Positions 17,131-61,490 of a stretch of DNA of 64,000 bases are shown piece after piece. Every line of letters begins with the position of its first letter. The first letter of the stretch is position 1. Source of the stretch: Nemopilema nomurai (lineage: Eukaryota > Cnidaria > Scyphozoa > Rhizostomeae > Rhizostomatidae). The position numbers and the translations under genes are program-made. The stretch covers positions 2,377,560 through 2,441,559 of the forward strand of contig ML133383.1 in NCBI GenBank assembly GCA_003864495.1, written 5' to 3'. The notes beneath the pieces are model-generated. The model was not told the origin of the DNA, did not search any database, and saw only the letters and a program-made list of their open reading frames with translations.

Positions 17131-17416
17131 ATCTGTCAATCATTCACGGCTCTAGCCCGCCCTCGGCCAAGCCGCTACTTGCGGGCAAAATATTCCAAGA
17201 AAACAATGGTTAAGTCTTAGAAAAATCCGGAGGAAAATTCAAAGGAAATTTCAATAGAAAACTACTTTGAATTTCTATTGTTGAAGCTAAAGACCACCAT
17301 TGAAATCTCTCCTAAGGTCTATTGTTTTTCCGGGAGAAAACAAAAGAGACAAGATTGAAATACAATTCAACATTGTTATTGGCATAAAAGAGGTTCCCTT
17401 CAATTCAATGGACATC
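17131..17416. other. Transition into minisatellite
   Basis: From about 17225 the sequence contains diverged fragments of the following 45-bp repeat ('aattcaaaggaaatttcaatagaaa'-type phrases); otherwise nothing recognised. Confidence 0.5.
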
Positions 17417-29146: not shown

Positions 29147-29585
29147 TATGACGTCAAATTGATTGATATACGCCACAACTATAAATTTGGAAGAATCGAT
29201 AAACGAGAAACCAGTTCACTCGTGAAGCAGCAGCGCAGGGATTGCCAAAAGATAGCTCTTGGGTGACGAAAGAAACGGTTCAAGAAATTAACCAAAACGG
29301 TATTCAACAAAGCAATATCCAAAAGAACAACCTCCATCTTGTGTTTGCGAATAGACAGTGAGAATTAAAATCAGTTCGTTCTAACACTCAAAGAATATCA
29401 ACGTCGGTAAGTACAATACATAAAAAGTAATATTTTTTATGACACTCCGACAAGTCATTGTAGCGAATGATATACTAAAAGATGTAATGAACCATCAATG
29501 TATACTCATTCGGTACGTTTAATATAAAAATCGTACAAATCTGTTGTCAATTAATATTACATATTCGCATTAGGAAAGGGCTTTG
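29147..29585 (+). repeat. Cassette 1 (edge copy, partial, divergent)
   Basis: Resembles the other cassettes only from the CRE onward (TGACGTCA 29149-29156, TATAAAT 29180-29186, donor-like G|GTAAGTAC at 29407). The left diverged monomer and the first part of the core are absent; upstream is single-copy DNA. Its reading frame is broken relative to the others. It marks the left boundary of the array and is either an old edge copy or close to the source. Confidence 0.9.
29149..29186 (+). promoter_or_regulatory. CRE plus TATA box, promoter-like (cassette 1)
   Basis: TGACGTCA, 23 bp, then TATAAAT: the same spacing as in all other cassettes despite substitutions around it (for example ACAAC for ACACC just before TATA). 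This is the arrangement of a CREB/ATF-type core promoter. An initiator-like TTCACTC lies about 30 bp after TATA, as expected for a start site. Transcription itself is inferred. Confidence 0.4.
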
Positions 29586-32500
29586 TAAAGGCTCGTCAAT
29601 GCCTTAATAGAAATGTAGTAGATGCAAAACACAACCGATGTATATTGATTCGGTAGCATCTATGTTGAGTTGTAATATCATTGTAACCTGTAGTCAATCA
29701 ATGTAAAAAATCGTCATAAAAACATCATTGTAAAGGCTCGTCAACACCTTGATAGAAATGCAGAAGATGTAAAGCACAACCGATGTATATTGATTCGATA
29801 GCATGTATGTTGAGTTGTAATATAATTGTAACCTGTAGTCAATCAATGTAAAAAAATCGTCATAAAAACAGAATTGTAAAGGCTCGTCAATGCCTTAATA
29901 GAAATGCAGAAGATGTAAAGCACAACCAATGAATATTCATTTGGTAATATGTATGTTGAATAGTAATATTATTGTAATATGTAGTCAATTAATGTAAAAT
30001 AATGTAGCATCTGTGTTGAGTTGTAATATCATTGTAACCTGTAGTCAATCAATGTAAAAAAATCGTCATAAAAACAGAATTGTAAAGGCTCGTCAATGCC
30101 TTGATAGAAATGCAGAAGATGTAAAGCACAACCAATGTATATTGATTTGACAGTATGTATGCTGAGTAGTAATATCATTGTAACCTGTAGTCAATCAATG
30201 TAAAAAATCGTCATAAAAACATCATTGTAAAGGCTCGTCAATGCCTTGATAGAAATACAGAAGATGTAAAGCACAACCGATGTATATTGATTCGATAGCA
30301 TGTATGTTGAGTAGTAATATTATTGTAATATGTAGTCAATTAATGTAAAAAATCGTCATAAAAACATCATTGTAAAGGCTCGTCAACGCCTTGATAGAAA
30401 TGCAGAAGATGTAAAGCACAACCAATGTTTATTGATTCGGTAGCATCTGTGTTGAGTTGTAATATAATTGTAACCTGTAGTCAATCAATGTAAAAAAATC
30501 GTCATAAAAACAGAATTGTAAAGGCTCGTCAACGCCTTGATAGAAATGCAGAAGATGTAAAGCACAACCAATGTTTATTGATTCGATAGCATGTATGTTG
30601 AGTTGTAATATCATTGTAACCTGTAGTCAATCAATGTAAAAAATCGTCATAAAAACATCATTGTAAAGGCTCGTCAACGCCTTGATAGAAATGCAGAAGA
30701 TGTAAAGCACAACCAATGAATATTCATTTGGTAATATGTATGTTGAATAGTAATATTATTGTAATATGTAGTCAATTAATGTAAAATACTCGTCACAAAA
30801 ATATCATTGTAAAGGCTTGTCAATGCCTTGATAGAAATGCAGAAGATGTAAAGCACAACCAATGTTTATTGATTCGATAGCATGTATGTTGAGTAGTAAT
30901 ATTATTGTAACCTGTAGTCAGTTAATGTAAACAATTCGCCATAAAAACAGCATTGTAAGGATGCTCGTCAATGCCTTGATAGAAATGCAGAAGATGTCAA
31001 ACACAATCAATGTTTATTGATTCGATAGCATGTATGTTGAGTTGTAATATCATTGTAACCTGTAGTCAATCAATGTAAAAAATTCGCCATAAAAACAGCA
31101 TTGTAAAGGCTCGTCAATGCCTTGATAGAAATGTAGTAGAAGCAAAACACAACCGATGTATATAGATTCGGTAGCATCTATGTTGAGTAGTAATATTATT
31201 GTAACCTGTAGTCAGTTAATGTAAACAATTCGCCATAAAAACAGCATTGTAAAGGCTCGTCAATGCCTTGATAGAAATGCAGAAGATGTAAAACACAACC
31301 AATGTTTATTGATTCGATAGCATGTATGTTGAGTTGTAATATCATTGTAACCTGTAGTCAATGAATGTAAAAAATTCGCCATAAAAACAGCATTGTAAAG
31401 GCTTGTCAATGCCTTAATAGAAATGTAGTAGAAGCAAAACACAACCGATGTATATAGATTCGGTAGCATCTATGTTGAGTAGTAATATTATTGTAACCTG
31501 TAGTCAGTTAATGTAAAAGATTCGTCATAAAAACAGCATTGTAAAGGCTCCTAAATGCCTTGATAGAAATGTAGTGGATGTAAAACACAACCAATGTTTA
31601 TTGATTCGGTAGCATCTATGTTGAGTTGTAATATCATTGTAACCTGTAGTCAATCAATGTAAAAAAATCGTCATAAAAACATCATTGTAAAGGCTTGTCA
31701 ATGCCTTGATAGAAATGCAGAAGATGTAAAGCACAACCAGTGAATATTTATTTGGTAATATGTATGTTGAGTAGTAATATTATTGTAACCTGTAGTCAAT
31801 GAATGTAAAAAATCGTCATAAAAACATCATTGTAAAGGCTTGTCAATGCCTTGATAGAAATGCAGAAGATGTAAAGCACAACCAGTGAATATTTATTTGG
31901 TAATATGTATGTTGAGTAGTAATATCATTGTAACCTGTAGTCAATCAATGTAAAAAATCGTCATAAAAACAGCATTGTAAAGGCTCGTCAATGCCTTGAT
32001 AGAAATGTAGTAGAAGAAAACACAACCGATGTATATTGATTCGGTAGCATCTGTGTGAGTTGTAATATATTGTAACCTGTAGTCAATCAATGTAAAAAAT
32101 CGTCATAAAAACAGAATTGTAAAGGCTCGTCAATGCCTTGATAGAAATGCAGAAGATGTAAAGCACAACCGATGTATATTGATTTGACAGTATGTATGCT
32201 GAGTAGTAATATTATTGTAACCTGTAGTCAATCAATGTAAAAAATCGTCATAAAAACATCATTGTAAAGGCTCGTCAATGCCTTAATAGAAATGTAGTAG
32301 ATGCAAAACACAACCGATGTATATTGATTCGGTAGCATCTATGTTGAGTAGTAATATTATTGTAACCTGTAGTCAGATAATGTAAAAAATTCGCCATAAA
32401 AACAGCATTGTAAAGGCTCCTCAATGCCTTGATAGAAATGTAGTGGATTTAAAACACAACCGATGTATATTGATTCGGTAGCATCTGTGTTGAGTAGTAA

Positions 32501-33846
32501 TATTATTGTAACCTGTACTCAATTTATGTAAAAGATTCGTCATAAAAACATCATTGTAAAGGCTCGTCAATGCCTTGATAGAAATGCAGAAGATTAAAGC
32601 ACAACCGATGTATATTGATTCGATAGCATCTATGTTGAGTAGTAATATTATTGTAACCTGTACTCAATTTATGTAAAAGATTCGTCATAAAAACATCATT
32701 GTAAAGGCTCGTCAATGCCTTGATAGAAATGTAGTAGATGTAAAACAAAACCGATGTATATTGATTCGATAGCATCTATGTTGAGTAGTAATATTATTGT
32801 AACCTGTACTCAATTTATGTAAAAGATTCGTCATATAAACATCATTGTAAAGGCTCGTCAGTGCCTTGATAAAAATGTAGTAGAAGCAAAACACAACCGA
32901 TGTATATAGATTCGGTAGCATCTATGTTGAGTAGTAATATTATTGTAACCTGTAGTCAGTTAATGTAAAAGATTCGTCATAAAAACAGCATTGTAAAGGC
33001 TCGTCAATGCCTTGATAGAAATGTAGTAGATGTAAAACACAACCGATGTATATTGATTCGGTAGCATCTATGTTGAGTAGTAATATTATTGTAACCTGTA
33101 GTCAATGAATGTCAAAAAATCGTCATAAAAACATCATTGTAAAGGCTCGTCAATGCCTTAATAGAAATGTAGTAGATGCAAAACACAACCGATGTATATT
33201 GATTCGGTAGCATCTATGTTGAGTTGTAATATCATTGTAACCTGTAGTCAATCAATGTAAAAAAATCGTCATAAAAACATCATTGTAAAGGCTTGTCAAT
33301 GCCTTGATAGAAATGCAGAAGATGTAAAGCACAACCAATGAATATTAATTTGGTAATATGTATGTTGAGTAGTAATATTATTGTAACCTGTAGTCAATCA
33401 ATGTAAAAAAATCGTCATAAAAACATCATTGTAAAGGCTTGTCAATGCCTTGATAGAAATGCAGAAGATGTAAAGCACAACGAGTGAATATTTATTTGGT
33501 AATATGTATGTTGAGTAGTAATATCATTGTAACCTGTAGTCAATCAATGTAAAAAATCGTCATAAAAACATCATTGTAAAGGCTCGTCAATGCCTTAATA
33601 GAAATGTAGTAGAAGCAAAACACAACCGATGTATATTGATTCGGTAGCATCTGTGTTGAGTTGTAATATCATTGTAACCTGTAGTCAATCAATGTAAAAA
33701 AATCGTCATAAAAACAGAATTGTAAAGGCTCGTCAATGCCTTCATAGAAATGCAGAAGATGTAAAGCACAACCGATGTATATTGATTTGACAGTATGTAT
33801 GCTGAGTAGTAATATTATTGTAACCTGTAGTCAGTTAATGTAAAAT
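29586..33846. repeat. Satellite block 1, about 29 monomers
   Basis: 4,261 bp of 146-bp monomers, the most heterogeneous block. Its first half has many GCAGAAGATG-type monomers, and there are variants with AATATTCATTTGG at the position of GTATATTGATTCGG. A partial duplicate of 30429-30720 recurs at 41583-41874. Confidence 0.95.
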
Positions 33847-34476
33847 ATTCGACTTGAAATTGATCATTGCCAAGGCTCTTCAATGTCTTCTTATTGAATC
33901 AGAAGAAGATGTGAAAAACAACCAGTCTTTGGCTTTTCGGGAGAAGTTACGTTAATTATTATATGAATTATTCCAATGTAGTTGACTCGACAAAAACATC
34001 AACAACAACACGCCGAGAAGACTGGGAACCCGTCTTTCTCTGTGACGTCAAATTGATTGATATACGCCACACCTATAAATTTGGAAGAATCGATAGTCGA
34101 GGAACCAGTTCACTCGTAGGAGCAGCAGCGCAGAGATTGCCAAAAGATAGCTCTTGGGTGACGAAAGAAACGGTTCAAGAAATTAACCAAAACGGTATTC
34201 AAGAAAGCAATATCCCAGAAGACAACCTCCCTTGTGTTTGGGAATGGACATTCAACATAAAATCAGTTCGTTCTAACACCCAAAGAAAGTCAACGTGTGT
34301 AAGTACAATACATAAAAAGTAATATTTTCTATGACACTCCGACAAGTCATTGTAGCGAATGAGATACTAAAAGATGTAATGAGCCATCAATGTATACTCA
34401 TTCGGTACGTTTAATATAAAAATCGTACAAATCTGATGTCAATTAATAATACATATTCGCATAGGAGAGGGCTTTG
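33847..34476 (+). repeat. Cassette 2 (reference copy)
   Basis: 630 bp. The left part, to about 34000, is a diverged satellite monomer (CATTGCCAAGGCTC, AGAAGAAGATGT and ACAACC line up with monomer phrases). The core is about 34005-34335 and is less AT-rich. The right part, from about 34340, is again a diverged monomer (AGATGTAA, CATTCGGTA, CATATTCGCAT, TTTGTAAAGGCTCG). CRE at 34043-34050, TATAAAT at 34074-34080, GTAAGTAC from 34299. Compared with copies 3, 9 and 12, two bases are missing in 'CCTCCCTTGTG', so the plus-strand frame of the core changes and runs 119 codons. Confidence 0.95.
34043..34080 (+). promoter_or_regulatory. CRE plus TATA box, promoter-like (cassette 2)
   Basis: TGACGTCA and TATAAAT, 23 bp apart, starting 196 and 227 bp into the cassette. 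The same offsets hold in copies 3 and 9. Function is inferred from motif arrangement only. Confidence 0.4.
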
Positions 34477-37400
34477 TAAAGGCTCGTCAATGCCTTGATT
34501 GAAATGTAGTAGATGCAAAACACAACCGATGTATATTGATTCGGTAGCATCTATGTTGAGTAGTAATATTATTGTAACCTGTAGTCAGTTAATGTAAAAA
34601 TTCGCCATAAAAACAGCATTGTAAAGGCTTGTCAATGCCATGATAGAAATGTAGTGGATGTAAAACACAACCAATCTTTATTGGTTCGGTAGCATGTATG
34701 TTGAGTTGTAATATCATTGTAGCCTGTAGTCAATCAATGTAAAAAAATCGTCATAAAAACATCATTGTAAAGGCTCGTCAATGCCTTAATAGAAATGTAG
34801 TAGATGCAAAACACAACCGATGTATATTGATTCGATAGCATCTATGTTGAGTAGTAATATTATTGTAACCTGTACTCAATTTATGTAAAAGATTCGTCAT
34901 AAAAACAGCATTGTAAAGGCTCCTCAATGCCTTAATAGAAATGTAGTAGATGCAAAACACAACCGATGTATATTGATTTGGTAGCATCTATGTTGAGTAG
35001 TAATATTATTGTAACCTGTAGTCAATGAATGTCAAAAAATCGTCATAAAAACAGCATTGTAAAGGCTTGTCAATGCCATGATAGAAATGTAGTGGATGTA
35101 AAACACAACCAATGTTTATTGATTCGGTAGCATGTATGTTGAGTTGTAATATCATTGTAACCTGTAGTCAATCAATGTAAAAAAATCGTCATAAAAACAT
35201 CATTGTAAAGGCTCGTCAATGCCTTAATAGAAATGTAGTAGATGCAAAACACAACCGATGTATATTGATTCGATAGCATCTATGTTGAGTAGTAATATTA
35301 TTGTAACCTGTACTCAATTTATGTAAAAGATTCGTCATAAAAACAGCATTGTAAAGGCTCCTCAATGCCTTGATAGAAATGTAGTAGATGTAAAACACAA
35401 CCGATGTATATTGATTTGGTAGCATCTATGTTGAGTAGTAATATTATTGTAACCTGTAGTCAATGAATGTCAAAAAATCGTCATAAAAACAGCATTGTAA
35501 AGGCTCGTCAATGACATGATAGAAATGTAGTAGATGTAAAACACAACCGATGTATATTGATTCGGTAGCATCTATGTTGAGTAGTAATATTATTGTAACC
35601 TGTAGTCAATGAATGTCAAAAAATCGTCATAAAAACAGCATTGTAAAGGCTCGTCAATGACATGATAGAAATGTAGTAGATGTAAAACACAACCGATGTA
35701 TATTGATTCGGTAGCATCTATGTTGAGTTGTAATATCATTGTAACCTGTAGTCAATGAATGTCAAAAATCGTCATAAAAACAGCATTGTAAAGGCTCGTC
35801 AATGACATGATAGAAATGTAGTAGATGTAAAACACAACCAATGTATATTGATTTGGTAGCATCTATGTTGAGTAGTAATATTATTGTAACCTGTAGTCAG
35901 TTAATGTAAAATATTCGTCATAAAAATATTATTGCAAAGGCTCGTCAATGCCTTCATAGAAATGCAGAAGATGTAAAGCACAACCAGTGAATATTTATTT
36001 GGTAATATGTATGTTGAGTTGTAATATCATTGTAACCTGTAGTCAGTTAATGTAAAAAATTCGCCATAAAAACAGCATTGTAAAGGCTTGTCAATGCCAT
36101 GATAGAAATGTAGTGGATGTAAAACACAACCAATGTTTATTGATTTGGTAGCATGTATGTTGAGTTGTAATATCATTGTAACCTGTAGTCAATCAATGTA
36201 AAAAAATCGTCATAAAAACATCATTGTAAAGGCTCGTCAATGCCTTAATAGAAATGTAGTAGATGCAAAACACAACCGATGTATATTGATTCGATAGCAT
36301 CTATGTTGAGTAGTAATATTATTGTAACCTGTACTCAATTTATGTAAAAGATTCGTCATAAAAACAGCATTGTAAAGGCTCCTCAATGCCATGATAGAAA
36401 TGTAGTAGATGTAAAACACAACCGATGTTTATTGATTCGGTAGCATCTATGTTGAGTAGTAATATTATTGTAACCTGTACTCAATTTATGTAAAAGATTC
36501 GTCATAAAAACATCATTGTAAAGGCTCGTCAATGCCTTGATAGAAATGTAATAGATGTAAAACAAAACCGATGTATATTGATTCGATAGCATCTATGTTG
36601 AGTAGTAATATTATTGTAACCTGAAGTCAGTTAATGTAAAAGATTCGTCATAAAAACATCATTGTAAAGGCTCGTCAATGCCTTGATAGAAATGTAGTAG
36701 ATGTAAAGCACAACCAGTGAATATTTATTTGGTAATATGTATGTTGAGTAGTAATATCATTGTAACCTGTAGTCAATCAATGTAAAAAATCGTCATAAAA
36801 ACATCATTGTAAAGGCTCGTCAATGCCTTGATAGAAATACAGAAGATGTAAAGCACAACCAGTGAATATTTATTTGGTAATATGTATGTTGAATAGTAAT
36901 ATTATTGTAACCTGTAGTCAGTTAATGTAAAAGATTCGTCATAAAAACATCATTGTAAAGGCTCGTCAATGCCTCAATAGAAATGTAGTAGATGCAAAAC
37001 ACAACCGATGTATATTGATTCGATAGCATCTATGTTGAGTAGTAATATTATTGTAACCTGTAGTCAATCAATGTAAAAAATCGTCATAAAAACATCATTG
37101 TAAAGGCTCGTCAATGCCTTAATAGAAATGTAGTAGATGCAAAACACAACCGATGTATATTGATTCGGTAGCATCTATGTTGAGTAGTAATACTATTGTA
37201 ACCTGTAGTCAGATAATGTAAAAAATTCGCCATAAAAACAGCATTGTAAAGGCTTCTCAATGCCTTGATAGAAATGTAGTAGATGTAAAACACAACCGAT
37301 GTATATTGATTCGGTAGCATCTATGTTGAGTAGTAATATTATTGTAACCTGTACTCAATTTATGTAAAAGATTCGTCATAAAAACATCATTGTAAAGGCT

Positions 37401-38537
37401 CCTCAATGCCTTGATAGAAATGTAGTGGATTTAAAACACAACCGATGTATATTGATTCGGTAGCATCTGTGTTGAGTAGTAATATTATGGCAATCTGTAC
37501 TCAATTTATGTAAAAGATTCGTCATAAAAACATCATTGTAAAGGCTCGTCAATGCCTTGATAGAAATGTAGTAGAAGCAAAACACAACCGATGTATATTG
37601 ATTCGGTAGCATCTATGTTGAGTTGTAATATCATTGTAACCTGTAGTCAATGAATGTCAAAAAATCGTCATAAAAACATCATTGTAAAGGCTCGTCAATG
37701 CCTTAATAGAAATGTAGTAGATGCAAAACACAACCGATGTATATTGATTCGGTAGCATCTGTGTTGAGTTGTAATATCATTGTAACCTGTAGTCAATCAA
37801 TGTAAAAAAATCGTCATAAAAACATCATTGTAAAGGCTCGTCAATGCCTTGATTGAAATGTAGTAGATGCAAAACAAAACCGATGTATATTGATTCGGTA
37901 GCATCTGTGTTGAGTTGTAATATCATTGTAACCTGTAGTCAATCAATGTAAAAAAATCGTCATAAAAACATCATTGTAAAGGCTTGTCAATGCCTTGATA
38001 GAAATGCAGAAGATGTAAAGCACAACCAGTGAATATTTATTTGGTAATATGTATGTTGAGTAGTAATATTATTGTAACCTGTAGTCAATCAATGTAAAAA
38101 AATCGTCATAAAAACATCATTGTAAAGGCTTGTCAATGCCTTGATAGAAATGCAGAAGATGTAAAGCACAACCAGTGAATATTTATTTGGTAATATGTAT
38201 GTTGAGTAGTAATATCATTGTAACCTGTAGTCAATCAATGTAAAAAATCGTCATAAAAACATCATTGTAAAGGCTCGTCAATGCCTTAATAGAAATGTAG
38301 TAGAAGCAAAACCCAACCGATGTATATTGATTCGGTAGCATCTGTGTTGAGTTGTAATATCATTGTAACCTGTAGTCAATCAATGTAAAAAAATCGTCAT
38401 AAAAACAGAATTGTAAAGGCTCGTCAATGCCTTCATAGAAATGCAGAAGATGTAAAGCACAACCGATGTATATTGATTTGACAGTATGTATGCTGAGTAG
38501 TAATATTATTGTAACCTGTAGTCAGTTAATGTAAAAT
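34477..38537. repeat. Satellite block 2, about 28 monomers
   Basis: 4,061 bp, 27 monomers plus 119 bp. Mixed variants; a 'TGACATGATAG' subtype is confined to 35500-35830. Confidence 0.95.
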
Positions 38538-39170
38538 ATTCGACTTGAAATTGATCATTGCCAAGGCTCTTCAATGTCTTCTTATTGAATCAGAAGAAGA
38601 TGTGAAAAACAACCAGTCTTTGGCTTTTTGGGAGAAGTTACGTTAATTATTATATGAATTATTCCAATGTAGTTGACTCGACAAAAACATCAACAACAAC
38701 ACGCCAAGAAGACCGGGAACCCGTCTTTCTCTGTGACGTCAAATTGATTTATATACGCCACACCTATAAATTTGGAAGAATCGATAGTCGAGGAACCAGT
38801 TCACTCGTAGGAGCAGCAGCGCAGAGATTGCCAAAAGATAGCTCTTGGGTGACGAAAGAAACGGTTCAAGAAATTAACCAAAACGGTATTCAAGAAAGCA
38901 ATATCCCAGAAGACAACCTCCATCTTGTGTTTGGGAATGGACATTCAACATAAAATCAGTTCGTTCTAACACCCAAAGAAAGTCAACGTGTGTAAGTACA
39001 ATACATAAAAAGTAATATTTTCTATGACACTCCGACAAGTCATTGTAGCGAATGAGATACTAAAAGAAGTAATGAGCCATCAATGTATACTCATTCGGTA
39101 CGTTTAATATAAAAATCGTACAAATCTGATGTCAATTAATAATACATATTCGCATTAGGAGAGGGCTTTG
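38538..39170 (+). repeat. Cassette 3
   Basis: 633 bp. The plus-strand core is open for 99 codons from ATG 38654. One substitution (GATTT for GATTG) lies between CRE (38734) and TATA (38765). Donor GTAAGTAC from 38992. Confidence 0.95.
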
Positions 39171-40169
39171 TAAAGGCTCGTCAATGCCTTGATTGAAATG
39201 TAGTAGATGCAAAACACAACCGATGTATATTGATTCGGTAGCATCTGTGTTGAGTAGTAATATTATTGTAACCTGTAGTCAGTTAATGTAAAAAATTCGC
39301 CATGAAAACATCATTGTAAAGGCTTGTCAATGCCATGATAGAAATGTAGTGGATGTAAAACACAACCAATGTTTATTGGTTCGGTAGCATGTATGTTGAG
39401 TTGTAATATCATTGTAGCCTGTAGTCAATCAATGTAAAAAAATCGTCATAAAAACATCATTGTAAAGGCTCGTCAATGCCTTAATAGAAATGTAGTAGAT
39501 GCAAAACACAACCGATGTATATTGATTCGGTAGCATCTATGTTGAGTAGTAATATTATTGTAACCTGTACTCAATTTATGTAAAAGATTCGTCATAAAAA
39601 CAGCATTGTAAAGGCTCCTCAATGCCTTGATAGAAATGTAGTAGATGTAAAACACAACCGATGTATATTGATTTGGTAGGATCTATGTTGAGTAGTAATA
39701 TTATTGTAACCTGTAGTCAGTTAATGTAAAAAATTCGCCATAAAAACAGCATTGTAAAGGCTTGTCAATGCCATGATAGAAATGTAGTGGATGTAAAACA
39801 CAACCAATGTTTATTGATTTGGTAGCATGTATGTTGAGTTGTAATATCATTGTAACCTGTAGTCAATCAATGTAAAAAAATCGTCAAAAAACATCATTGT
39901 AAAGGCTCGTCAATGCCTTAATAGAAATGTAGTAGATGCAAAACACAACCGATGTATATTGATTCGGTAGCATCTATGTTGAGTAGTAATATTATTGTAA
40001 CCTGTAGTCAGATAATGTAAAAAATTCGCCATAAAAACAGCATTGTAAAGGCTTGTCAATGCCTTCATAGAAATGCAGAAGATGTAAAGCACAACCGATG
40101 TATATTGATTTGACAGTATGTATGCTGAGTAGTAATATTATTGTAACCTGTAGTCAGTTAATGTAAAAT
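39171..40169. repeat. Satellite block 3, about 7 monomers
   Basis: 999 bp, six monomers plus 123 bp; same length class as block 10. Confidence 0.95.
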
Positions 40170-40798
40170 ATTCGACTTGAAATTGATCATTGCCAAGGCT
40201 CTTCAATGTCTTCTTATTGATCAGAAGAAGATGTGAAAAACAACCAGTCTTTGGCTTTTCGGGAGAAGTTACGTTAATTATTATATGAATTATTCCAATT
40301 AGTTGACTCGACAAAAACATCAACAACAACACGCCGAGAAGACCGGGAACCCGTCTTTCTCTGTGACGTCAAATTGATTGATATATGCCACACCTATAAA
40401 TTTGGAAGAATCGATAGTCGAGGAACCAGTTCACTCGTAGGAGCAGCAGCGCAGAGATTGCCAAAAGATAGCTCTTGGGTGACGAAAGAAACGGTTCAAG
40501 AAATTAACCAAAACGGTATTCAAGAAAGCAATATCCCAGAAGACAACCTCCCTTGTGTTTGGGAATGGACATTCAACATAAAATCAGTTCGTTCTAACAC
40601 CCAAAGAAAGTCAACGTGTGTAAGTACAATACATAAAAAGTAATATTTTCTATGACACTCCGACAAGTCATTGTAGCGAATGAGATACTAAAAGATGTAA
40701 TGAGCCATCAATGTATACTCATTCGGTACGTTTAATATAAAAATCGTACAAATCTGATGTCAATTAATAATACATATTCGCACTAGGAGAGGGCTTTG
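40170..40798 (+). repeat. Cassette 4
   Basis: 629 bp. Shares with cassette 5 single-base deletions in TTATTGATCAG and CCAATTAGTT and the change ATATATGCC upstream of TATA, so 4 and 5 are sister copies. It has the two-base deletion CCTCCCTTGTG also seen in copy 2. Confidence 0.95.
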
Positions 40799-42233: not shown

Positions 42234-42861
42234 ATTCGACTTGAAATTGATCATTGCCAAGGCTCTTCAATGTCTTCTTATTGATCAGAAGAAGATGTGA
42301 AAAACAACCAGTCTTTGGCTTTTCGGGAGAAGTTACGTTAATTATTATATGAATTATTCCAATTAGTTGACTCGACAAAAACATCAACAACAACACGCCG
42401 AGAAGACCGGGAACCCGTCTTTCTCTGTGACGTCAAATTGATTGATATATGCCACACCTATAAATTTGGAAGAATCGATAGTCGAGGAACCAGTTCACTC
42501 GTAGGAGCAGCAGCGCAGAGATTGCCAAAAGATAGCTCTTGGGTGACGAAAGAAACGGTTCAAAAAATTAACCAAACGGTATTCAAGAAAGCAATATCCC
42601 AGAAGACAACCTCCCTTGTGTTTGGGAATGGACATTCAACATAAAATCAGTTCGTTCTAACACCCAAAGAAAGTCAACGTGTGTAAGTACAATACATAAA
42701 AAGTAATATTTTCTATGACACTCCGACAAGTCATTGTAGCGAATGAGATACTAAAAGATGTAATGAGCCATCAATGTATACTCATTCGGTACGTTTAATA
42801 TAAAAGACGTACAAATCTGATGTCAATTAATAATACATATTCGCATTAGGAGAGGGCTTTG
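42234..42861 (+). repeat. Cassette 5
   Basis: 628 bp. Sister of cassette 4 (2,064 bp apart), with an additional single-base deletion (ACCAAACGG) that shifts the core frame. Confidence 0.95.
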
Positions 42862-45468: not shown

Positions 45469-46102
45469 ATTCGACTTGAAATTGATCATTGCCAAGGCTC
45501 TTCAATGTCTTCTTATTGAATCAGAAGAAGATGTGAAAAACAACCAGTCTTTGGCTTTTCGGGAGAAGTTACGTTAATTATTATATGAATTATTCCAATG
45601 TAGTTAATCGACAAAAACATCAACAACAACACGCCGAGAAGACCGGGAACCCGTCTTTCTCTGTGACGTCAAATTGATTGATATACGCCACACCTATAAA
45701 TTTGGAAGAATCGATAGTCGAGGAACCAGTTCACTCGTAGGAGCAGCAGCGCAGAGATTGCCAAAAGATAGCTCTTGGGTGACGAAAGAAACGGTTCAAG
45801 AAATTAACCAAAACGGTATTCAAGAAAGCAATATCCCAGAAGACAACCTCCATCTTGTGTTTGGGAATGGACATTCAACATAAAATCAGTTCGTTCTAAC
45901 ACCCAAAGAAAGTCAACGTCGGTAAGTACAATACAAAAAAAGTAATATTTTTCAGGACACTCCGACAAGTCATTGTAGCGAATGAGATACTAAAAGATGT
46001 AATGAGCCATCAATGTATACTCATTCGGTACGTTTATATATAAAAATCGTACAAATCTGATGTCAATTAATAATTACATATTCGCATTAGGAGAGGGCTT
46101 TG
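45469..46102 (+). repeat. Cassette 6
   Basis: 634 bp. GTTAATCG replaces GTTGACTCG, which breaks the frame upstream, so the open part starts at 45674. The donor context is CG|GTAAGTAC, as in copies 1 and 7; TTTTTCAGGACAC replaces TTTTCTATGACAC, also as in copy 7. Confidence 0.95.
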
Positions 46103-47936: not shown

Positions 47937-48568
47937 ATTCGACTTGAAATTGATCATTGCCAAGGCTCTTCAATGTCTTCTTATTGAATCAGAAGAAGAT
48001 GTGAAAAACAACCAGTCTTTGGCTTTTCGGGAGAAGTTACGTTAATTATTATATGAATTATTCCAATGTAGTTGACTCGACAAAAACATCAACAACAACA
48101 CGCCGAGAAGACCGGGAACCCGTCTTTCTCTGTGACGTCAAATTGATTGATATACGCCACACCTATAAATTTGGAAGAATCGATAGTCGAGGAACCAGTT
48201 CACTCGTAGGAGCAGCAGCGCAGAGATTGCCAAAAGATAGCTCTTGGGTGACGAAAGAAACGGTTCAAGAAATTAACCAAAACGGTATTCAAGAAAGCAA
48301 TATCCAGAAGACAACCTCCATCTTGTGTTTGGGAATGGACATTCAACATAAAATCAGTTCGTTCTAACACCCAAAGAAAGTCAACGTCGGTAAGTACAAT
48401 ACAAAAAAAGTAATATTTTTCAGGACACTCCGACAAGTCATTGTAGCGAATGAGATACTAAAAGATGTAATGAGCCATCAATGTATACTCATTCGGTACG
48501 TTTAATATAAAAATCGTACAAATCTGATGTCAATTAATAATACATATTCGCATTAGGAGAGGGCTTTG
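47937..48568 (+). repeat. Cassette 7
   Basis: 632 bp. A single-base deletion (ATATCCAGAAG) shifts the core frame. Donor context CG|GTAAGTAC, shared with copies 1 and 6. Confidence 0.95.
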
Positions 48569-50694: not shown

Positions 50695-51328
50695 ATTCGA
50701 CTTGAAATTGATCATTGCCAAGGCTCTTCAATGTCTTCTTATTGAATCAGAAGAAGATGTGAAAAACAACCAGTCTTTGGCTTTTCGGGAGAAGTTACGT
50801 TAATTATTGTATGAATTATTCCAATGTAGTTGACTCGACAAAAACATCAACAACAACACGCCGAGAAGACCGGGAACCCGTCTTTCTCTGTGACGTCAAA
50901 TTGATTGATATACGCCACACCTATAAATTTGGAAGAATCGATAGTCGAGGAACCAGTTCACTCGTAGGAGCAGCAGCGCAGAGATTGCCAAAAGATAGCT
51001 CTTGGGTGACGAAAGAAAACGGTTCAAGAAATTAACCAAAACGGTATTCAAGAAAGCAATATCCCAGAAGACAACCTCCATCTTGTGTTTGGGAATGGAC
51101 ATTCAACATAAAATCAGTTCGTTGTAACACCCAAAGAAAGTCAACGTGTGTAAGTACAATACATAAAAAGTAATATTTTCTATGACACTCCGACAAGTCA
51201 TTGTAGCGAATGAGATACTAAAAGAAGTAATGAGCCATCAATGTATACTCATTCGGCACGTTTAATATAAAAATCGTACAAATCTGATGTCAATTAATAA
51301 TACATATTCGCATTAGGAGAGGGCTTTG
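50695..51328 (+). repeat. Cassette 8
   Basis: 634 bp. A one-base insertion (GAAAGAAAACGG) truncates the core frame at 74 codons. CRE, TATA and GTAAGTAC intact. Confidence 0.95.
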
Positions 51329-53057
51329 TAAAGGCTCGTCAATGCCTTGATTGAAATGTAGTAGATGCAAAACACAACCGATGTATATTGATTCGGTAGC
51401 ATCTGTGTTGAGTAGTAATATTATTGTAACCTGTAGTCAGTTAATGTAAAAAATTCGCCATAAAAACAGCATTGTAAAGGCTTGTCAATGCCATGATAGA
51501 AATGTAGTGGATGTAAAACACAACCAATCTTTATTGGTTCGGTAGCATGTATGTTGAGTTGTAATATCATTGTAGCCTGTAGTCAATCAATGTAAAAAAA
51601 TCGTCATAAAAACATCATTGAAAAGGCTCGTCAATGCCTTAATAGAAATGTAGTAGATGCAAAACACAACCGATGTATATTGATTCGATAGCATCTATGT
51701 TGAGTAGTAATATTATTGTAACCTGTACTCAATTTATGTAAAAGATTCGTCATAAAAACAGCATTGTAAAGGCTCCTCAATGCCTTGATAGAAATGTAGT
51801 AGATGTAAAACACAACCGATGTATATTGATTCGGTAGCATCTATGTTGAGTAGTAATATTATTGTAACCTGTAGTCAGTTAATGTAAAAAATTCGCCATA
51901 AAAACAGCATTGTAAAGGCTTGTCAATGCCATGATAGAAATGTAGTGGATGTAAAACACAACCAATCTTTATTGGTTCGGTAGCATGTATGTTGAGTTGT
52001 AATATCATTGTAGCCTGTAGTCAATCAATGTAAAAAAATCGTCATAAAAACATCATTGAAAAGCTCGTCAATGCCTTAATAGAAATGTAGTAGATGCAAA
52101 ACACAACCGATGTATATTGATTCGATAGCATCTATGTTGAGTAGTAATATTATTGTAACCTGTACTCAATTTATGTAAAAGATTCGTCATAAAAACAGCA
52201 TTGTAAAGGCTCCTCAATGCCTTGATAGAAATGTAGTAGATGTAAAACACAACCGATGTATATTGATTCGGTAGCATCTATGTTGAGTAGTAATATTATT
52301 GTAACCTGTAGTCAGTTAATGTAAAAAATTCGCCATAAAAACAGCATTGTAAAGGCTTGTCAATGCCATGATAGAAATGTAGTGGATGTAAAACACAACC
52401 AATGTTTATTGGTTCGGTAGCATGTATGTTGAGTTTTAATATCATTGTAGCCTGTAGTCAATCAATGTAAAAAAATCGTCATAAAAACATCATTGTAAAG
52501 GCTTGTCAATGCCTTAATAGAAATGTAGTAGATGCAAAACACAACCGATGTATATTGATTCGGTAGCATCTATGTTGAGTAGTAATATTATTGTAACCTG
52601 TACTCAATTTATGTAAAAGATTCGTCATAAAAATGGCATTGTAAAGGCTCCTCAATGCCTTGATAGAAATGTAGTAGATGTAAAACACAACCGATGTATA
52701 TTGATTCGGTAGCATCTATGTTGAGTAGTAATATTATTGTAACCTGTAGTCAGTTAATGTAAAATATTCGTCATAAAAATATCATTGCAAAGGCTCGTCA
52801 ATGCCTTCATAGAAATGCAGAAGATGTAAAGCACAACCAGTGAATATTTATTTGGTAATATGTATGTTGAGTTGTAATATCATTGTAACCTGTAGTCAAT
52901 CAATGTAAAAAAATCGTCATAAAAACAGAATTGTAAAGGCTCGTCAATGCCTTCATAGAAATGCAGAAGATGTAAAGCACAACCGATGTATATTGATTTG
53001 ACAGTATGTATGCTGAGTAGTAATATTATTGTAACCTGTAGTCAGTTAATGTAAAAT
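51329..53057. repeat. Satellite block 8, about 12 monomers
   Basis: 1,729 bp, 11 monomers plus 123 bp. A three-monomer period is visible (about 437 bp: 51631, 52068 and 52506 are equivalent points). Confidence 0.95.
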
Positions 53058-53690
53058 ATTCGACTTGAAATTGATCATTGCCAAGGCTCTTCAATGTCTT
53101 CTTATTGAATCAGAAGAAGATGTGAAAAACAACCAGTCTTTGGCTTTTCGGGAGAAGTTACGTTAATTATTATATGAATTATTCCAATGTAGTTGACTCG
53201 ACAAAAACATCAACAACAACACGCCGAGAAGACCGGGAACCCGTCTTTCTCTGTGACGTCAAATTGATTGATATACGCCACACCTATAAATTTGGAAGAA
53301 TCGATAGTCGAGGAACCAGTTCACTCGTAGGAGCAGCAGCGCAGAGATTGCCAAAAGATAGCTCTTGGGTGACGAAAGAAACGGTTCAAGAAATTAACCA
53401 AAACGGTATTCAAGAAAGCAATATCCCAGAAGACAACCTCCATCTTGTGTTTGGGAATGGACATTCAACATAAAATCAGTTCGTTCTAACACCCAAAGAA
53501 AGTCAACGTGTGTAAGTACAATACATAAAAAGTAATATTTTCTATGACACTCCGACAAGTCATTGTAGCGAATGAGATACTAAAAGAAGTAATGAGCCAT
53601 CAATGTATACTCATTAGACACGTTTAATACAAGAATCGTACAAATCTGATGTCAATTAATAATACATATTCGCATTAGGAGAGGGCTTTG
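53058..53690 (+). repeat. Cassette 9
   Basis: 633 bp, core frame of 99 codons intact. The right diverged monomer carries private changes (CATTAGACACG, TACAAGAATCG). Confidence 0.95.
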
Positions 53691-55566
53691 TAAAGGCTCG
53701 TCAATGCCTTGATTGAAATGTAGTAGATGCAAAACACAACCGATGTATATTGATTCGGTACCATCTGTGTTGAGTAGTAATATTATTGTAACCTGTAGTC
53801 AGTTAATGTAAAAAATTCGCCATAAAAACAGCATTGTAAAGGCTTGTCAATGCCATGATAGAAATGTAGTGGATGTAAAACACAACCAATGTTTATTGGT
53901 TCGGTAGCATGTATGTTGAGTTGTAATATCATTGTAGCCTGTAGTCAATCAATGTAAAAAAATCGTCATAAAAACATCATTGTAAAGGCTCGTCAATGCC
54001 TTAATAGAAATGTAGTAGATGCAAAACACAACCGATGTATATTGATTCGATAGCATCTATGTTGAGTAGTAATATTATTGTAACCTGTACTCAATTTATG
54101 TAAAAGATTCGTCATAAAAACAGCATTGTAAAGGCTCCTCAATGCCTTGATAGAAATGTAGTGGATGTAAAACACAACCGATGTATATTGATTCGGTAGC
54201 ATCTGTGTTGAGCAGTAATATTATGGCAATCTGTACTCAATTTATGTAAAAGATTCGTCATAAAAACATCATTGTAAAGGCTCGTCAATGCCTTGATAGA
54301 AATGCAGAAGATGTAAAGCACAACCGATGTATATTGATTCGATAGCATCTATGTTGAGTAGTGATATTATTGTAACCTGTACTCAATTTATGTAAAAGAT
54401 TGGTCATAAAAACATCATTGTAAAGGCTCGTCAATGCCTTGATAGAAATGTAGTAGATGTAAAACAAAACCGATGTATATTGATTCGGTAGCATCTATGT
54501 TGAGTTGTAATATCATTGTAACCTGTAGTCAGTTAATGTAAAAGATTCGTCATAAAAACATCATTGTAAAGGCTCGTCAATGCCTTGATAGAAATGCAGA
54601 AGATGTAAAGCACAACCGATGTATATTGATTCGATAGCATCTATGTTGAGTAGTAATATTATTGTAACCTGTACTCAATTTATGTAAAAGATTCGCCATA
54701 AAAACATCATTGTAAAGGCTCCTCAATGCCTTGATAGAAATGTAGTGGATGTAAAACACAACCGATGTATATTGATTCGGTAGCATCTGTGTTGAGTAGT
54801 AATATTATGGCAATCTGTACTCAATTTATGTAAAAGATTCGTCATAAAAACATCATTGTAAAGGCTCGTCAATGCCTTGATAGAAATGCAGAAGATGTAA
54901 AGCACAACCGATGTATATTGATTCGATAGCATCTATGTTGAGTAGTAATATTATTGTAACCTGTACTCAATTTATGTAAAAGATTCGTCATAAAAACATC
55001 ATTGTAAAGGCTCGTCAATGCCTTGATAGAAATGTAGTAGATGTAAAACAAAACCGATGTATATTGATTCGATAGCATCTATGTTGAGTAGTAATATTAT
55101 TGTAACCTGTACTCAATTTATGTAAAAGATTCGTCATAAAAACATCATTGTAAAGGCTCGTCAACGCCTTGATAGAAATGCAGAAGATGTAAAGCACAAC
55201 CAATGTTTATTGATTCGGTAGCATCTATGTTGAGTAGTAATATTATTGTAATCTGTGGTCTATAGATGTAAAAAATTCGTCATAAAAATATCATTGTAAA
55301 GGCTCGTCAACGCCTTGATAGAAATGCAGAAGATGTAAAGCACAACCAATGTTTATTTATTCGGTAGCATCTATGTTGAGTAGTAATATTATTGTAACCT
55401 GTAGTCAGTTAATGTAAAAAATTCGCCATAAAAACAGCATAGTAAAGGCTCGTCAATGCCTTGATTGAAATGTAGTGGATGTAAAACACAACCGATGTAT
55501 ATTGATTCGGTAGCATCTATGTTGAGTAGTAATATTATTGTAATCTGTGGTCTATCAATGTAAAAA
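53691..55566. repeat. Satellite block 9, about 13 monomers
   Basis: 1,876 bp, 12 monomers plus 124 bp. Several 'TATGGCAATCTG' variants alternate with standard monomers at 438-bp (three-monomer) spacing. Confidence 0.95.
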
Positions 55567-56197
55567 ATTCGACTTGAAATTGATCATTGCCAAGGCTCTT
55601 CGATGTCTTCTTATTGAATCAGACGAAGATGTGAAAAACAACCAGTCTTTGGCTTTTCGGGAGAAGTTACGTTAATTATTATATGAATTATTCTAATGTA
55701 GTTGACTCGACAAAAACATCAACAACAACACGCCGAGAAGACCGGGAACCCGTCTTTCTCTGTGACGTCAAATTGATTGATATACGCCACACCTATAAAT
55801 TTGGAAGAATCGATAGTCGAGGAACCAGTTCACTCGTAGGAGCAGCAGCGCAGAGATTGCCAAAAGATAGCTCTTGGGTGACGAAAGAAACGGTTCAAGA
55901 AATTAACCAAAACGGTATTCAAGAAAGCAATATCCCAGAAGACAACCTCCATCTTGTGTTTGGGAATGGACATTCAACATAAAATCAGTTCGTTCTAACA
56001 CCCAAAGAAAGTCAACGTGTGTAAGTACAATACATAAAAAGTAATATTTTCTATGACACTCCGACAAGTCATTGTAGCGAATGAGTACTAAAAAAGTAAT
56101 GAGCCATCAATGTATACTCATTCGGCACGTTTAATATAAAAATCGTACAAATCTGATGTCAATTAATAATACATATTCGCATTAGGAGAGGGCTTTG
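55567..56197 (+). repeat. Cassette 10
   Basis: 631 bp, 99-codon frame intact. Shares CTTCGATGTC and AGACGAAGATG with copy 12. Two small deletions in the right monomer (GAGTACTAAAAAAGTAATG). Confidence 0.95.
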
Positions 56198-57197
56198 TAA
56201 AGGCTCGTCAATGCCTTGATTGAAATGTAGTAGATGTAAAACACAACCGATGTATATTGATTCGGTAGCATCTGTGTTGAGTAGTAATATTATTGTAACC
56301 TGTAGTCAGTTAATGTAAAAAATTCGCCATGAAAACATCATTGTAAAGGCTCGTCAATGCCTTGATAGAAATGTAGTGGATGTAAAACACAACCAATGTT
56401 TATTGGTTCGGTAGCATCTGTGTTGAGTAGTAATATTATTGTAACCTGTAGTCAGTTAATGTAAAAGATTCGTCATAAAAACAGCATTGTAAAGGCTCCT
56501 CAATGCCATGATAGAAATGTAGTAGATGTAAAACACAACCGATGTATATTGATTTGGTAGCATCTATGTTGAGTAGTAATATTATTGTAACCTGTAGTCA
56601 GTTAATGTAAAAAATTCGCCATGAAAACATCATTGTAAAGGCTTGTCAATGCCATGATAGAAATGTAGTGGATGTAAAACACAACCAATGTTTATTGGTT
56701 CGGTAGCATCTGTGTTGAGTAGTAATATTATGGCAATCTGTACTCAATTTATGTAAAAGATTCGTCATAAAAACATCATTGTAAAGGCTCGTCAATGCCT
56801 TAATAGAAATGTAGTAGATGCAAAACACAACCGATGTATATTGATTCGGTAGCATCTATGTTGAGTAGTAATATTGTTGTAACCTGTAGTCAGTTAATAT
56901 AAAAAATTCGTCATAAAAACATCATTGTAAAGGCTCGTCAATGCCTTAATAGAAATGTAGTAGATGTAAAACACAACCAATGTATATTGATTCGGTAGCA
57001 TCTATGTTGAGTAGTAATATTATTGTAACCTGTAGTCAATCAATGTAAAAAAATCGTCATAAAAACAGAATTGTAAAGGCTCGTCAATGCCTTAATAGAA
57101 ATGTAGTAGATGTAAAACACAACCAATGTATATTGATTCGGCAGTATGTATGTTGAGTAGTAATATTATTGTAACCTGTAGTCAGTTAATGTAAAAT
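56198..57197. repeat. Satellite block 10, about 7 monomers
   Basis: 1,000 bp, six monomers plus 124 bp. Confidence 0.95.
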
Positions 57198-57830
57198 ATT
57201 TGACTTGAAATTGATCATTGCCAAGGCTCTTCAATGTCTTCTTATTGAATCAGAAGAAGATGTGAAAAACAACCAGTCTTTGGCTTTTCGGTAGAAGTTA
57301 CGTTAATTATTATATGAATTATTCCAATGTAGTTGACTCGACAACAACATCAACAACAACACGCCGAGAAGACCGGGAACCCGTCTTTCTCTGTGACGTC
57401 AAATTGATTGATATACGCCACACCTATAAATTTGGAAGAATCGATAGTCGAGGAACCAGTTCACTCGTAGGAGCAGCAGCGCAGAGATTGCCAAAAGATA
57501 GCTCTTGGGTGACGAAAGAAACGGTTCAAGAAATTAACCAAAACGGTATTCAAGAAAGCAATATCCCAGAAGACAACCTCCATCTTGTGTTTGGGAATGG
57601 ATATTCAACATAAAATCAGTTCGTTCTAACACCCAAAGAAAGTCAACGTATGTAAGTACAATACATAAAAAGTAATATTTTCTATGACACTCCGACAAGT
57701 CATTGTAGCGAATGAGATACTAAAAGATGTAATGAGCCATCAATTTATACTCATTCGGTACGTTTAATATAAAAATCGTACAAATCTGATGTCAATTAAT
57801 AATACATATTCGCATTAGGAGAGGGCTTTG
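57198..57830 (+). repeat. Cassette 11
   Basis: 633 bp, 99-codon frame intact with one substitution (ACAACAACATC). Donor context AT|GTAAGTAC. Confidence 0.95.
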
Positions 57831-60800
57831 TAAAGGCTCCTCAATGCCTTGATTGAAATGTAGTAGATGCAAAACACAACCGATGTATATTGATTCGGTA
57901 GCATCTGTGTTGAGTAGTAATATTATTGTAACCTGTAGTCAGTTAATGTAAAATATTCGTCATAAAAACAGCATTGTAAAGGCTTGTCAATGCCATGATA
58001 GAAATGTTGTGGATGTAAAACACAACCAATGTTTATTGGTTCGGTAGCATGTATCTTGAGTTGTAATATCATTGTAGCCTGTAGTCAATCAATGTAAAAA
58101 AATCGTCATCAAAACATCATTGTAAAGGCTCGTCAATGCCTTAATAGAAATGTAGTAGATGTAAAACACAACCGATATATATTGATTTGGTAGCATCTAT
58201 GTTGAGTAGTAATATTATTGTAACCTGTAGTCAGTTAATGTAAAATATTCGTCATAAAAACAGCATTGTAAAGGCTCGTCAATGCCTTGATAGAAATGTT
58301 GTGGATGTAAAACACAACCTATGTTTATTGTTTCGGTAGCATGTATGTTGAGTTGTAATATCATTGTAACCTGTAGTCAATCAATGTAAAAAAATCGTCA
58401 TAAAAACATCATTGTAAAGGCTTGTCAATGCCTTAATAGAAATGTAGTAGATGCAAAACACAACCGATGTATATTGATTCGGTAGCATCTATGTTGAGTA
58501 GTAATATCATTGTAACCTGTACTCAATTTATGTAAAAGATTCGTCATAAAAACAGCATTGTAAAGGCTCCTCAATGCCTTGATAGAAATGTAGTAGATGT
58601 AAAACACAACCGATGTATATTGATTCGGTAGCATCTATGTTGAGTAGTAATATTATTGTAACCTGTACTCAATTTATGTAAAAGATTCGTCATAAAAACA
58701 TCATTGTAAAGGCTCCTCAATGCCTTGATAGAAATGTAGTAGATGTAAAACACAACCGATGTATATTGATTCGGTAGCATCTATGTTGAGTAGTAATATT
58801 ATTGTAACCTGTAGTCAGTTAATGTAAAAAATTCGTTATAAAAACAGGATTGTAAAGGCTTGTCAATGCCATGATAGAAATGTATTGGATGTAAAACACA
58901 ACCAATGTTTATTGATTTGGTAGCATGTATGTTGAGTTGTAATATTATTGTAACCTGTACTCAATTTATGTAAAAGATTCGTCATAAAAACATCATTGTA
59001 AAGGCTCCTCAATGCCTTGATAGAAATGTAGTGGATGTAAAACACAACAGATGTATATTGATTCGGTAGCATCTGTGTTGAGTAGTAATATTATGGCAAT
59101 CTGTACTCAATTTATGTAAAAGATTCGTCATAAAAACATCATTGTAAAGGCTCGTCAATGTCTTGATAGAAATGTAGTAGATGTAAAACAAAACCGATGT
59201 ATATTGATTCGATAGCATCTATGTTGAGTAGTAATATTATTGTAACCTGTACTCAATTTATGTAAAAATTCGTCATAAAACATCATTGTAAAGGCTCGTC
59301 AATGCCTTGATAGAAATGTAGTAGATGTAAAACAAAACCGATGTATATTGATTCCATAGCATCTATGTTGAGTAGTAATATTTTGGCAATCTGTACTCAA
59401 TTTATGTAAAAGATTCGTCATAAAAACATCATTGTAAAGGCTCGTCAATGCCTTGATAGAAATGTAGAAGATGTAAACACAACCGATGTATATTGATTCG
59501 ATAGCATCTATGTTGAGTAGTAATATTATTGTAACCTGTACTCAATTTATGTAAAAGATTCGTCATAAAAACATCATTGTAAAGGCTCGTCAATGCCTTG
59601 ATAGAAATGTAGTAGATGTAAAGCACAACCGATGTATATTGATTCGATAGCATCTATGTTGAGTAGTAATATTATTGTAACCTGTACTCAATTTTGTAAA
59701 AGATTCGTCATAAAAACATCATTGTAAAGGCTCGTCAATGCCTTGATAGAAATGTAGTAGATGTAAAACAAAACCGATGTATATTGATTCGATAGCATCT
59801 ATGTTGAGTAGTAAAATTATTGTAACCTGTACTCAATTTATGTAAAAGATTCGTCATAAAAACATCATTGTAAAGGCTCGTCAATGCCTTGATAGAAATG
59901 TAGTGGATGTAAAACACAACCGATGTATATGATTCGGTAGCATCTGTGTTGAGTAGTAATATTATGTAACTGTCTCAATTGTAAAAGATTCGTCATAAAA
60001 ACATCATTGTAAAGGCTCGTCAATGCCTTGATAGAAATGTAGTGGATGTAAAACACAACCGATGTATATTGATTCGGTAGCATCTGTGTTGAGTAGTAAT
60101 ATATTGTAACTGTAGTCAATTTATGTAAAAATTCGTCATAAAAACATCATTGTAAAGGCTCGTCAATGCCTTGATAGAAATGCAGAAGATGTAAAGCACA
60201 ACCGATGTATATTGATTCGATAGCATCTATGTTGAGTAGTAATATTATTGTAACCTGTAGTCAATAAATGTCAAAAATTCGTCATAAAAACATCATTGTA
60301 AAGGCTCGTCAATGCCTTGATAGAAATGTAGTAGATGTAAAGCACAACCGAATGTATATTGATTCGATAGCATCTATGTTGAGTAGTAATATTATTGTAA
60401 CCTGTAGTCAATTAATGTAAAAAATTCGTCATAAAAACATCATTGTAAAGGCTCGTCAACGCCTTGATAGAAATGCAGAAGATGTAAAGCACAACCAATG
60501 TTTATTGATTCGTAGCATCTATGTTGAGTAGTAATATTATTGTAATCTGTGTCAATAGATGTAAAAAATTCGTCATAAAAATCATTGTAAAGGCTCGTCA
60601 ACGCCTTGATAGAAATGCAGAAGATGTAAAGCACAACCAATGTTTATTTATTCGGTAGCATCTATGTTGAGTAGTAATATTATTGTAACCTGTAGTCAGT
60701 TAATGTAAAACATTCGCCATAAAAACAGCATTGTAAAGGCTCGTCAATGCCTTGATTGAAATGTAGTAGATGTAAAACACAACCGATGTATATTGATTCG

Positions 60801-60857
60801 GTAGCATCTATGTTGAGTAGTAATATTATTGTAATCTGTGGTCTATAAATGTAAAAA
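57831..60857. repeat. Satellite block 11, about 21 monomers
   Basis: 3,027 bp. From about 59.2 kb many monomers carry one- or two-base deletions (for example TATATGATTCGG near 59930 and ATTATGTAACTGTCTCAATTG near 59960), so the block falls short of whole monomers plus about 123 bp. Confidence 0.95.
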
Positions 60858-61490
60858 ATTCGACTTGAAATTGATCATTGCCAAGGCTCTTCGATGTCTT
60901 CTTATTGAATCAGACGAAGATGTTAAAAACAACCAGTCTTTGGCTTTTCGGGAGAAGTTACGTTAATTATTATATGAATTATTCCAATGTAGTTGACTCG
61001 ACAAAAACATCAACAACAACACGCCGAGAAGACCGGGAACCCGCCTTTCTCTGTGACGTCAAATTGATTGATATACGCCACACCTATAAATTTGGAAGAA
61101 TCGATAGTCGAGGAACCAGTTCACTCGTAGGAGCAGCAGCGCAGAGATTGCCAAAAGATAGCTCTTGGGTGACGAAAGAAACGGTTCAAGAAATTAACCA
61201 AAACGGTATTCAAGAAAGCAATATCCCAGAAGACAACCTCCATTTTGTGTTTGGGAATGGATATTCAACATAAAATCAGTTCGTTCTAACACCCAAAGAA
61301 AGTCAACGTCTGTAAGTACAATACATAAAAAGTAATATTTTCTATGACACTCCGACAAGTCATTGTAGCGAATGAGATACTAAAAGATGTAATGAGCCAT
61401 CAATGTATACTCATTCGGTACGTTTAATATAAAAATCGTACAAATCTGATGTCAATTAATAATACATATTCGCATTAGGAGAGGGCTTTG
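60858..61490 (+). repeat. Cassette 12
   Basis: 633 bp. The upstream frame is open further because GATGTTAAAAAC replaces GATGTGAAAAAC; the core frame itself is intact. Donor context CT|GTAAGTAC. Confidence 0.95.

Follow-up and report, generated by a model that had tools for sequence, protein, structure and literature searches.

Promoters within satellite DNA are already known: the human macrosatellite DXZ4 is a transcribed tandem array with promoter activity in every unit, according to the available part of its description (PMC3491370). We analysed a 64,000-nucleotide stretch of the genome of the jellyfish Nemopilema nomurai (contig ML133383.1, C19:2377560-2441559; hereafter the window) that contains a composite satellite, array A, in which short monomers are interrupted by modules carrying a cyclic AMP response element (CRE), a TATA box and a 5' splice site on one strand. 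A preliminary description of the window knew of no satellite with this layout. As a category the layout is not new, since DXZ4 units already have promoter activity each; the jellyfish arrays would be a DXZ4-like promoter-bearing macrosatellite with a new layout, in which the promoter role of the modules is predicted.

Human DXZ4 is GC-rich, X-linked and bound by CTCF, and in the available part of that account its splicing was not observed in primates (PMC3491370), whereas the jellyfish arrays are AT-rich and combine a short satellite with a module that carries a predicted promoter (CRE and TATA box) and a conserved 5' splice site. The same partial source describes mouse Dxz4 as tandem units with exonic sequence, giving a spliced satellite RNA with a 163-nt exon per monomer; the promoter there is outside the array (PMC3491370), whereas each jellyfish module would have its own TATA-type promoter and a first-exon-like exon. 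Internal RNA polymerase II (Pol II) starts are reported for the beetle satellite PRAT and for newt satellite 2, the latter with a small nuclear RNA-type promoter; PRAT has several scattered start sites and a consensus without a perfect TATA box, as far as the partial text goes (PMC2220036). In the jellyfish arrays, each multi-monomer unit has a single, defined promoter-like module. Human HSat3 RNA is induced by stress and connected with HSF1 and CREBBP, HSF1 being the driver and CREBBP an associated factor; no CRE/TATA/5' splice site module is described for it in the available part of the source (PMC10813801). Among the matches listed by the literature search, no cnidarian promoter-bearing satellite was recognised by title or start of abstract, nor was any short-monomer satellite recognised that has a TATA/CRE/5' splice site module. 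To our knowledge, CTCF binding, X-linkage and X-inactivation chromatin are not to be expected in a cnidarian.

Module copies are found at three loci

The 212.9-Mb assembly (226 contigs) was searched for homology to the cores of array A and of its two relatives, array B and copy C, all counts being lower bounds. The three query cores recovered an identical set of 36 module copies at three loci (36 of 36, 36 of 40 and 36 of 36 matches; the four extra were 36- to 38-base hits to the ACA-rich query start). Fourteen copies belong to array A, 13 on C19 and one on C197. The C197 copy is 95% identical to the left edge of array A in unique sequence, and this contig is probably the other haplotype of that edge. 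Array B comprises 21 copies, 12 at C61:2.87-2.95 Mb and nine at C47:0.245-0.293 Mb, and copy C is a single module at C61:2160501. The preliminary description had considered that the core might match a transposable-element family; with only three loci found, it does not resemble a dispersed transposable element.

The two array B contigs probably represent two haplotypes of a single locus, because a distinct satellite with a period of 172-176 bp precedes the array on both (L013:4-1597 and L021:1-1322). The array B stretches contain runs of N, and the right end of the array passes into Ns. Array B is the same composite as array A, with 143- to 144-bp monomers and the module at the same place in the monomer (by eye), and module orientation is uniform within each locus. 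Core identity is 78-82% between B and C, 69-70% between A and B and 71-74% between A and C; B and C are thus strongly diverged from A, and the three appear to be independent lineages, with B and C closer to one another than to A. Copies within array B are 85-100% identical, and the 11 interior cassettes of array A 95.9-99.5% (390-base core). Because the interior array A cassettes are near-identical, their agreement is weakly informative, and the informative comparison is that with B and C.

Locus C consists of one complete module amid decayed monomers, plus a partial second module reduced to the exon end; in this promoter-less fragment the bases aligned to the donor GT are AG. The search for a single-copy parent gene, proposed in the preliminary description, gave only a partial answer: the nearest candidate is copy C, itself surrounded by decayed monomers. 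The relic copy and its decayed monomers lie between the two halves of a 300-bp direct repeat (L012:3104-3403 and 5909-6208, C61 near 2.16 Mb), which are 2.8 kb apart and 99% identical. Weaker similarity extends some hundreds of bases past the repeat, which may have arisen by a recent duplication or be a mobile element. Away from modules, 131-base matches (74%) to the array A monomer at C47:316183, C61:3061612, C27:158699 and C15:1674457 are possible further relatives of the satellite.

CRE, TATA box and 5' splice site are conserved in excess of their surroundings

The motifs were chosen from array A only, and B and C served as independent test data. In the core alignment, 55% of 400 columns are identical in all three consensuses. 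The CRE and the TATA box are intact in all 36 copies, separated by 23 bp in A and C and by 22 bp in B, and GTAAGT is present in 34 copies; the remaining two have GTATGT and GCAAGT, both of them hexamers that can serve as splice donors. Letters invariant across the three consensuses number 8/8 in the CRE, 7/7 in the TATA box, 6/6 in GTAAGT and 7/8 in GTAAGTAC. Taken together, CRE, TATA box and GTAAGTAC have 22 of 23 letters invariant, compared with 144 of 246 for all other module positions between CRE and donor (P=1.4e-4), and random placement of blocks of equal length reached 22 in 0.06% of 200,000 draws (P=6e-4). The spacer between CRE and TATA box is at background conservation (12 of 23 letters, against 15 of 15 in the two motifs; P=0.001). 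The longest invariant block, TGACGTCAAATTG (13 letters), contains the CRE; further long invariant blocks, GGAGCAGCAGC and GCAGAGAT, are found 13-31 nt past the presumed start in A (counted by eye). In conclusion, the modules combine a CRE, a TATA box and a putative start signal (CAGTT) at fixed spacing, more conserved than their surroundings, with a 5' splice site whose GTAAGT is either kept or replaced by a donor-like hexamer.

The promoter and first-exon reading of the preliminary description is therefore supported for the CRE, the TATA box and the 5' splice site, which are kept in B and C, but not for TTCACTC as an initiator. This word is where it had been placed, beginning in cassette 2 at 28 bp past the TATA box, and is found in 14/14 array A copies; it is missing from all 22 B and C copies (0/21 in B, absent from C), where the letters are TTTAATC, and only 5/7 of its letters are invariant. 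CAGTT, which overlaps the start of TTCACTC, is invariant at 5/5 letters. An inverted CCAAT (ATTGG) follows the CRE in 18/21 B copies and in copy C (1/1); its presence in only 1/14 A copies rules it out as a fixed fourth element.

Presumed start and exon

The initial T of the TATA box lies 33 bp 5' of the A of CAGT in array A, in copy C and in 21/21 B copies, array B having an additional CAGTT 12 bases upstream of this one. Between this A and the donor, array A has 191-196 nt, copy C 198 nt and array B 188-198 nt; with this distance nearly constant, the putative exon hardly varies in length despite single-base gains and losses. A coding exon was considered and rejected: open frames in the window, counted at a length of at least 120 amino acids, cross four modules (120-135 amino acids) but traverse both the CRE and the TATA box, and locus C has a frame of only 78 amino acids. 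Rfam gave no match for the window at gathering level and none for positions 33800-36000 at E up to 1, and the tRNA search found no tRNA.

Anatomy of array A

Array A occupies positions 29147-64000 of the window (plus strand), where it comprises 146-bp monomers and 12 modules, and continues to about C19:2443.8k. The monomers span 34 kb and are broken by one module per 1.6-4.9 kb, so that the array is long, head-to-tail and organised in higher-order units, as are satellites and macrosatellites. Two features had been claimed for all twelve window cassettes on the plus strand, and both were recovered in 12/12: TGACGTCA followed after 23 bp by TATAAAT (shuffle mean 0.00), and GTAAGTAC. The exact TGACGTCA occurs 14 times in the window, 12 of them within cassettes (shuffle mean 0.84), and the exact GTAAGTAC also 14 times, again with 12 within cassettes. 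The distance of about 220 bp to GTAAGTAC is correct when the TATA box is taken as the starting point, cassette 2 having 218 bp. The count of twelve is right for the window, but the array has a 13th module at L009:1443, 1.4 kb beyond the window end, with GTATGTAC at the donor position, that is, a GTATGT donor. Regular monomers end at L009:1289 (Tandem Repeats Finder), just within the leading monomer of the 13th module, and decayed monomers extend 3' of it to about L009:2250 (about C19:2443.8k).

Module 1 (29149-29414 from CRE to 5' splice site, plus strand as for all modules) is the edge copy, with unique DNA upstream. As had been noted, it keeps all the named elements next to unrelated upstream DNA; it is 92% identical to cassette 2, and its homology to the other cassettes begins 3 bp 5' of the CRE. 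In module 2 (34043-34306), the CRE is at 34043-34050, the TATA box at 34074-34080, TTCACTC at 34109-34115 and the A of CAGTT at 34107, which gives a putative exon at 34107-34298 followed by GTAAGTAC at 34299-34306. CRE-TATA and GTAAGTAC matches define modules 3 (38734-38999), 4 (40364-40627), 5 (42428-42690), 6 (45664-45929), 7 (48133-48397), 8 (50891-51157), 9 (53254-53519), 10 (55763-56028), 11 (57394-57659) and 12 (61054-61319). A diverged monomer and an ACA-rich stretch lie 5' of module 2 (33841-34042, plus strand), an arrangement shared by the 10 remaining interior modules in the window. After module 2, the putative start of an intron or of read-through (34307-34480, plus strand) comprises about 30 bp, a diverged monomer and then regular monomers.

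Strand signals and neighbourhood

In positions 29147-64000 of the window, AATAAA occurs twice on the plus strand (both past 60 kb) and 60 times on the minus strand, and 93 plus-strand occurrences were expected under a first-order Markov null. With a column-by-column monomer null, 1.8 were expected and one was seen in A (168 monomers), and 8.5 were expected and three seen in B (554 monomers); 49% of hexamers of similar expectation in A, and 23% in B, are as low as AATAAA or lower. Selection against sense-strand poly(A) signals was rejected, since the monomer-column null accounts for their scarcity. On the sense strand of the window array GTAAGT is found at modules only, and it was seen once among the 554 B monomers. 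The sense-strand scarcity of AATAAA and GTAAGT suits long read-through RNAs, but it is a consequence of the monomer sequence. The observed/expected ratio of CpG is 0.93 in A, 1.19 in B (Ns allowed for) and 0.64 in the flank; this high ratio, like the undamaged CpG within the CRE, is a hint that the arrays may be little methylated in the germline.

The first gene recognised downstream of array A encodes a DUF4471 domain (E 6e-24), the domain family of the dynein assembly factor DNAAF3. It lies on the minus strand, and array A is therefore unlike the 5' end of that gene. A genome search with a 1.3-kb stretch downstream of array A found only itself and satellite relatives. Elsewhere in the window, a serpin gene (3188-4420, minus strand) is 66% identical to a Rhopilema esculentum serpin and 68% to another, which indicates a scyphozoan-like host, and a 45-bp tandem repeat (14 copies, 17402-18042) is open as a 209-amino acid frame of a 15-residue repeat.

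The CRE-TATA layout at unrelated loci

The pattern CRE-N20..26-TATAAAT was found 54 times genome-wide, 36 times in the module family and 18 times outside it; the reversed pattern was found eight times, so that the CRE-TATA pair alone is only mildly enriched. From the 18 non-family hits, C95 and one of four C54 copies were inspected. The four copies (C54:294138-309880, L029) are 5.1-5.3 kb apart; in the copy inspected, a 167-amino acid open frame begins 112 bp past the TATA box, and the locus has the look of tandemly repeated genes whose promoters are laid out similarly. At C95, a 28-amino acid first-exon frame begins 105 bp past the TATA box and ends at GTGAGT, with exon-like frames beyond (by eye); the protein pieces matched no Pfam family. 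Its CRE is followed by ATTGG, as in copy C and most B copies. C95 was rejected as a parent gene because its alignment to the module family is unconvincing beyond the CRE, the inverted CCAAT and the TATA box, and it is taken as an independent promoter with the same layout. The CRE-TATA layout thus seems to precede other gene-like loci in this genome, at the two unrelated places inspected.

Discussion

The reading that we favour, to which we give slightly better than an even chance, is that of a composite satellite in which each unit is headed by a real Pol II promoter and a noncoding first exon and yields satellite RNAs. The unit head would comprise the CRE, 22-23 bp, the TATA box, a CAGT start signal 33 bp past the first T of that box, a noncoding exon of about 190-198 nt and the 5' splice site, and would be followed by a variable run of 144- to 146-bp monomers. 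Transcription would begin at the modules and proceed rightwards through the monomers, whose sense strand in A has no GTAAGT and almost no AATAAA. The products would be nested long satellite RNAs, either spliced or held intact by U1 bound near the promoter; apart from splicing, a 5' splice site may have the role of protecting a long RNA through U1. We infer transcription of the modules, its start site and splicing from their sequence, and CREB/ATF as the activator from the consensus site. The modules suggest that the array repeats are, or recently were, read into RNA.

Several observations weigh against this reading. The motif columns are less variable than others within arrays, but not significantly so (P=0.10 in A, 0.09 in B), and within-array purifying selection on the motifs was not retained. 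The A and B consensuses are 71% identical in the monomer and 66% in the exon, which indicates that the whole family changes slowly; with the exon no better conserved than the monomers, it is the motif letters that argue for selection. Only three lineages are compared, two of which, B and C, are closer relatives. The inverted CCAAT is mostly missing from A, hence promoter content is not uniform, and the scarcity of AATAAA follows from the monomer sequence itself and is no sign of selection. Finally, no acceptor common to A and B was seen (by eye only). A pyrimidine run followed by TAG in the B monomer is a possible candidate acceptor; the A monomer lacks both at the same place (by eye).

The modules might instead be fossils, the start of a once-active gene or repeat that was trapped in the satellite, amplified and silenced, with homogenisation keeping the motifs. 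The near-identity of the interior A copies (95.9-99.5%), a satellite as conserved between A and B as the exon, and the lack of a conserved reading frame and of a common acceptor by eye would all fit such a history. However, homogenisation within an array cannot explain why A, B and C share these letters when their spacers and exons have changed, the motifs exceed the rest of the module (P=1.4e-4) and both donor exceptions remain donor-like; we judge silent fossils unlikely, though deserving a serious hearing. The absence of dispersed copies bears on another origin, the capture of a transposable-element promoter, for instance a long terminal repeat. Length, TATA box and strong directionality would suit it, as would the 300-bp direct repeat (99%, 2.8 kb apart) around copy C, but the 36 copies (a lower bound) are confined to three loci, all beside monomers of the same family, and the direct repeats flank the relic array and not the module, which makes such a capture very unlikely.

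Two further explanations accept the modules as functional. Bound by CREB/ATF, and perhaps by NF-Y in most B copies, they could act as enhancer, boundary or recombination sites, any RNA being a by-product. The CRE is complete in 36/36 copies and lies within the longest invariant block, TGACGTCAAATTG, and DXZ4 is a precedent for a factor-binding macrosatellite, on the available part of its description (PMC3491370); a pure binding array would need neither a TATA box at fixed distance nor a 5' splice site, and we consider it decidedly unlikely that binding is the whole function. Alternatively, the modules could be alternative first exons spliced to a shared exon of a gene past the array. Variable-first-exon gene clusters do have a repeated promoter, exon and 5' splice site in one direction, as seen here. 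However, the DUF4471 gene, the only one recognised past array A, is transcribed in the opposite direction, and a 1.3-kb stretch downstream of the array matches satellite relatives only; this arrangement is the one to which we give the least credence.

If the modules are promoters of satellite RNAs, as we favour, our guess at the likeliest role of the product would be that of a noncoding RNA acting on the chromatin of its own array or feeding small-RNA pathways. A stronger form of this idea, which we hold to be rather improbable but with a real chance, is that the two diverged arrays are selected batteries of about a dozen near-identical CREB/ATF-responsive promoters, which would fire together and produce a ladder of nested RNAs in response to cyclic AMP or stress. 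It is an old question whether satellites are transcribed as noise or under selection. In this family the letters of the putative promoter can be told apart from the remaining repeat sequence, and a pair of diverged arrays together with a single copy provides an internal test of selection that does without RNA data. Were the batteries inducible, the satellite would be an inducible RNA-producing organ of the chromosome and not a passive repeat.

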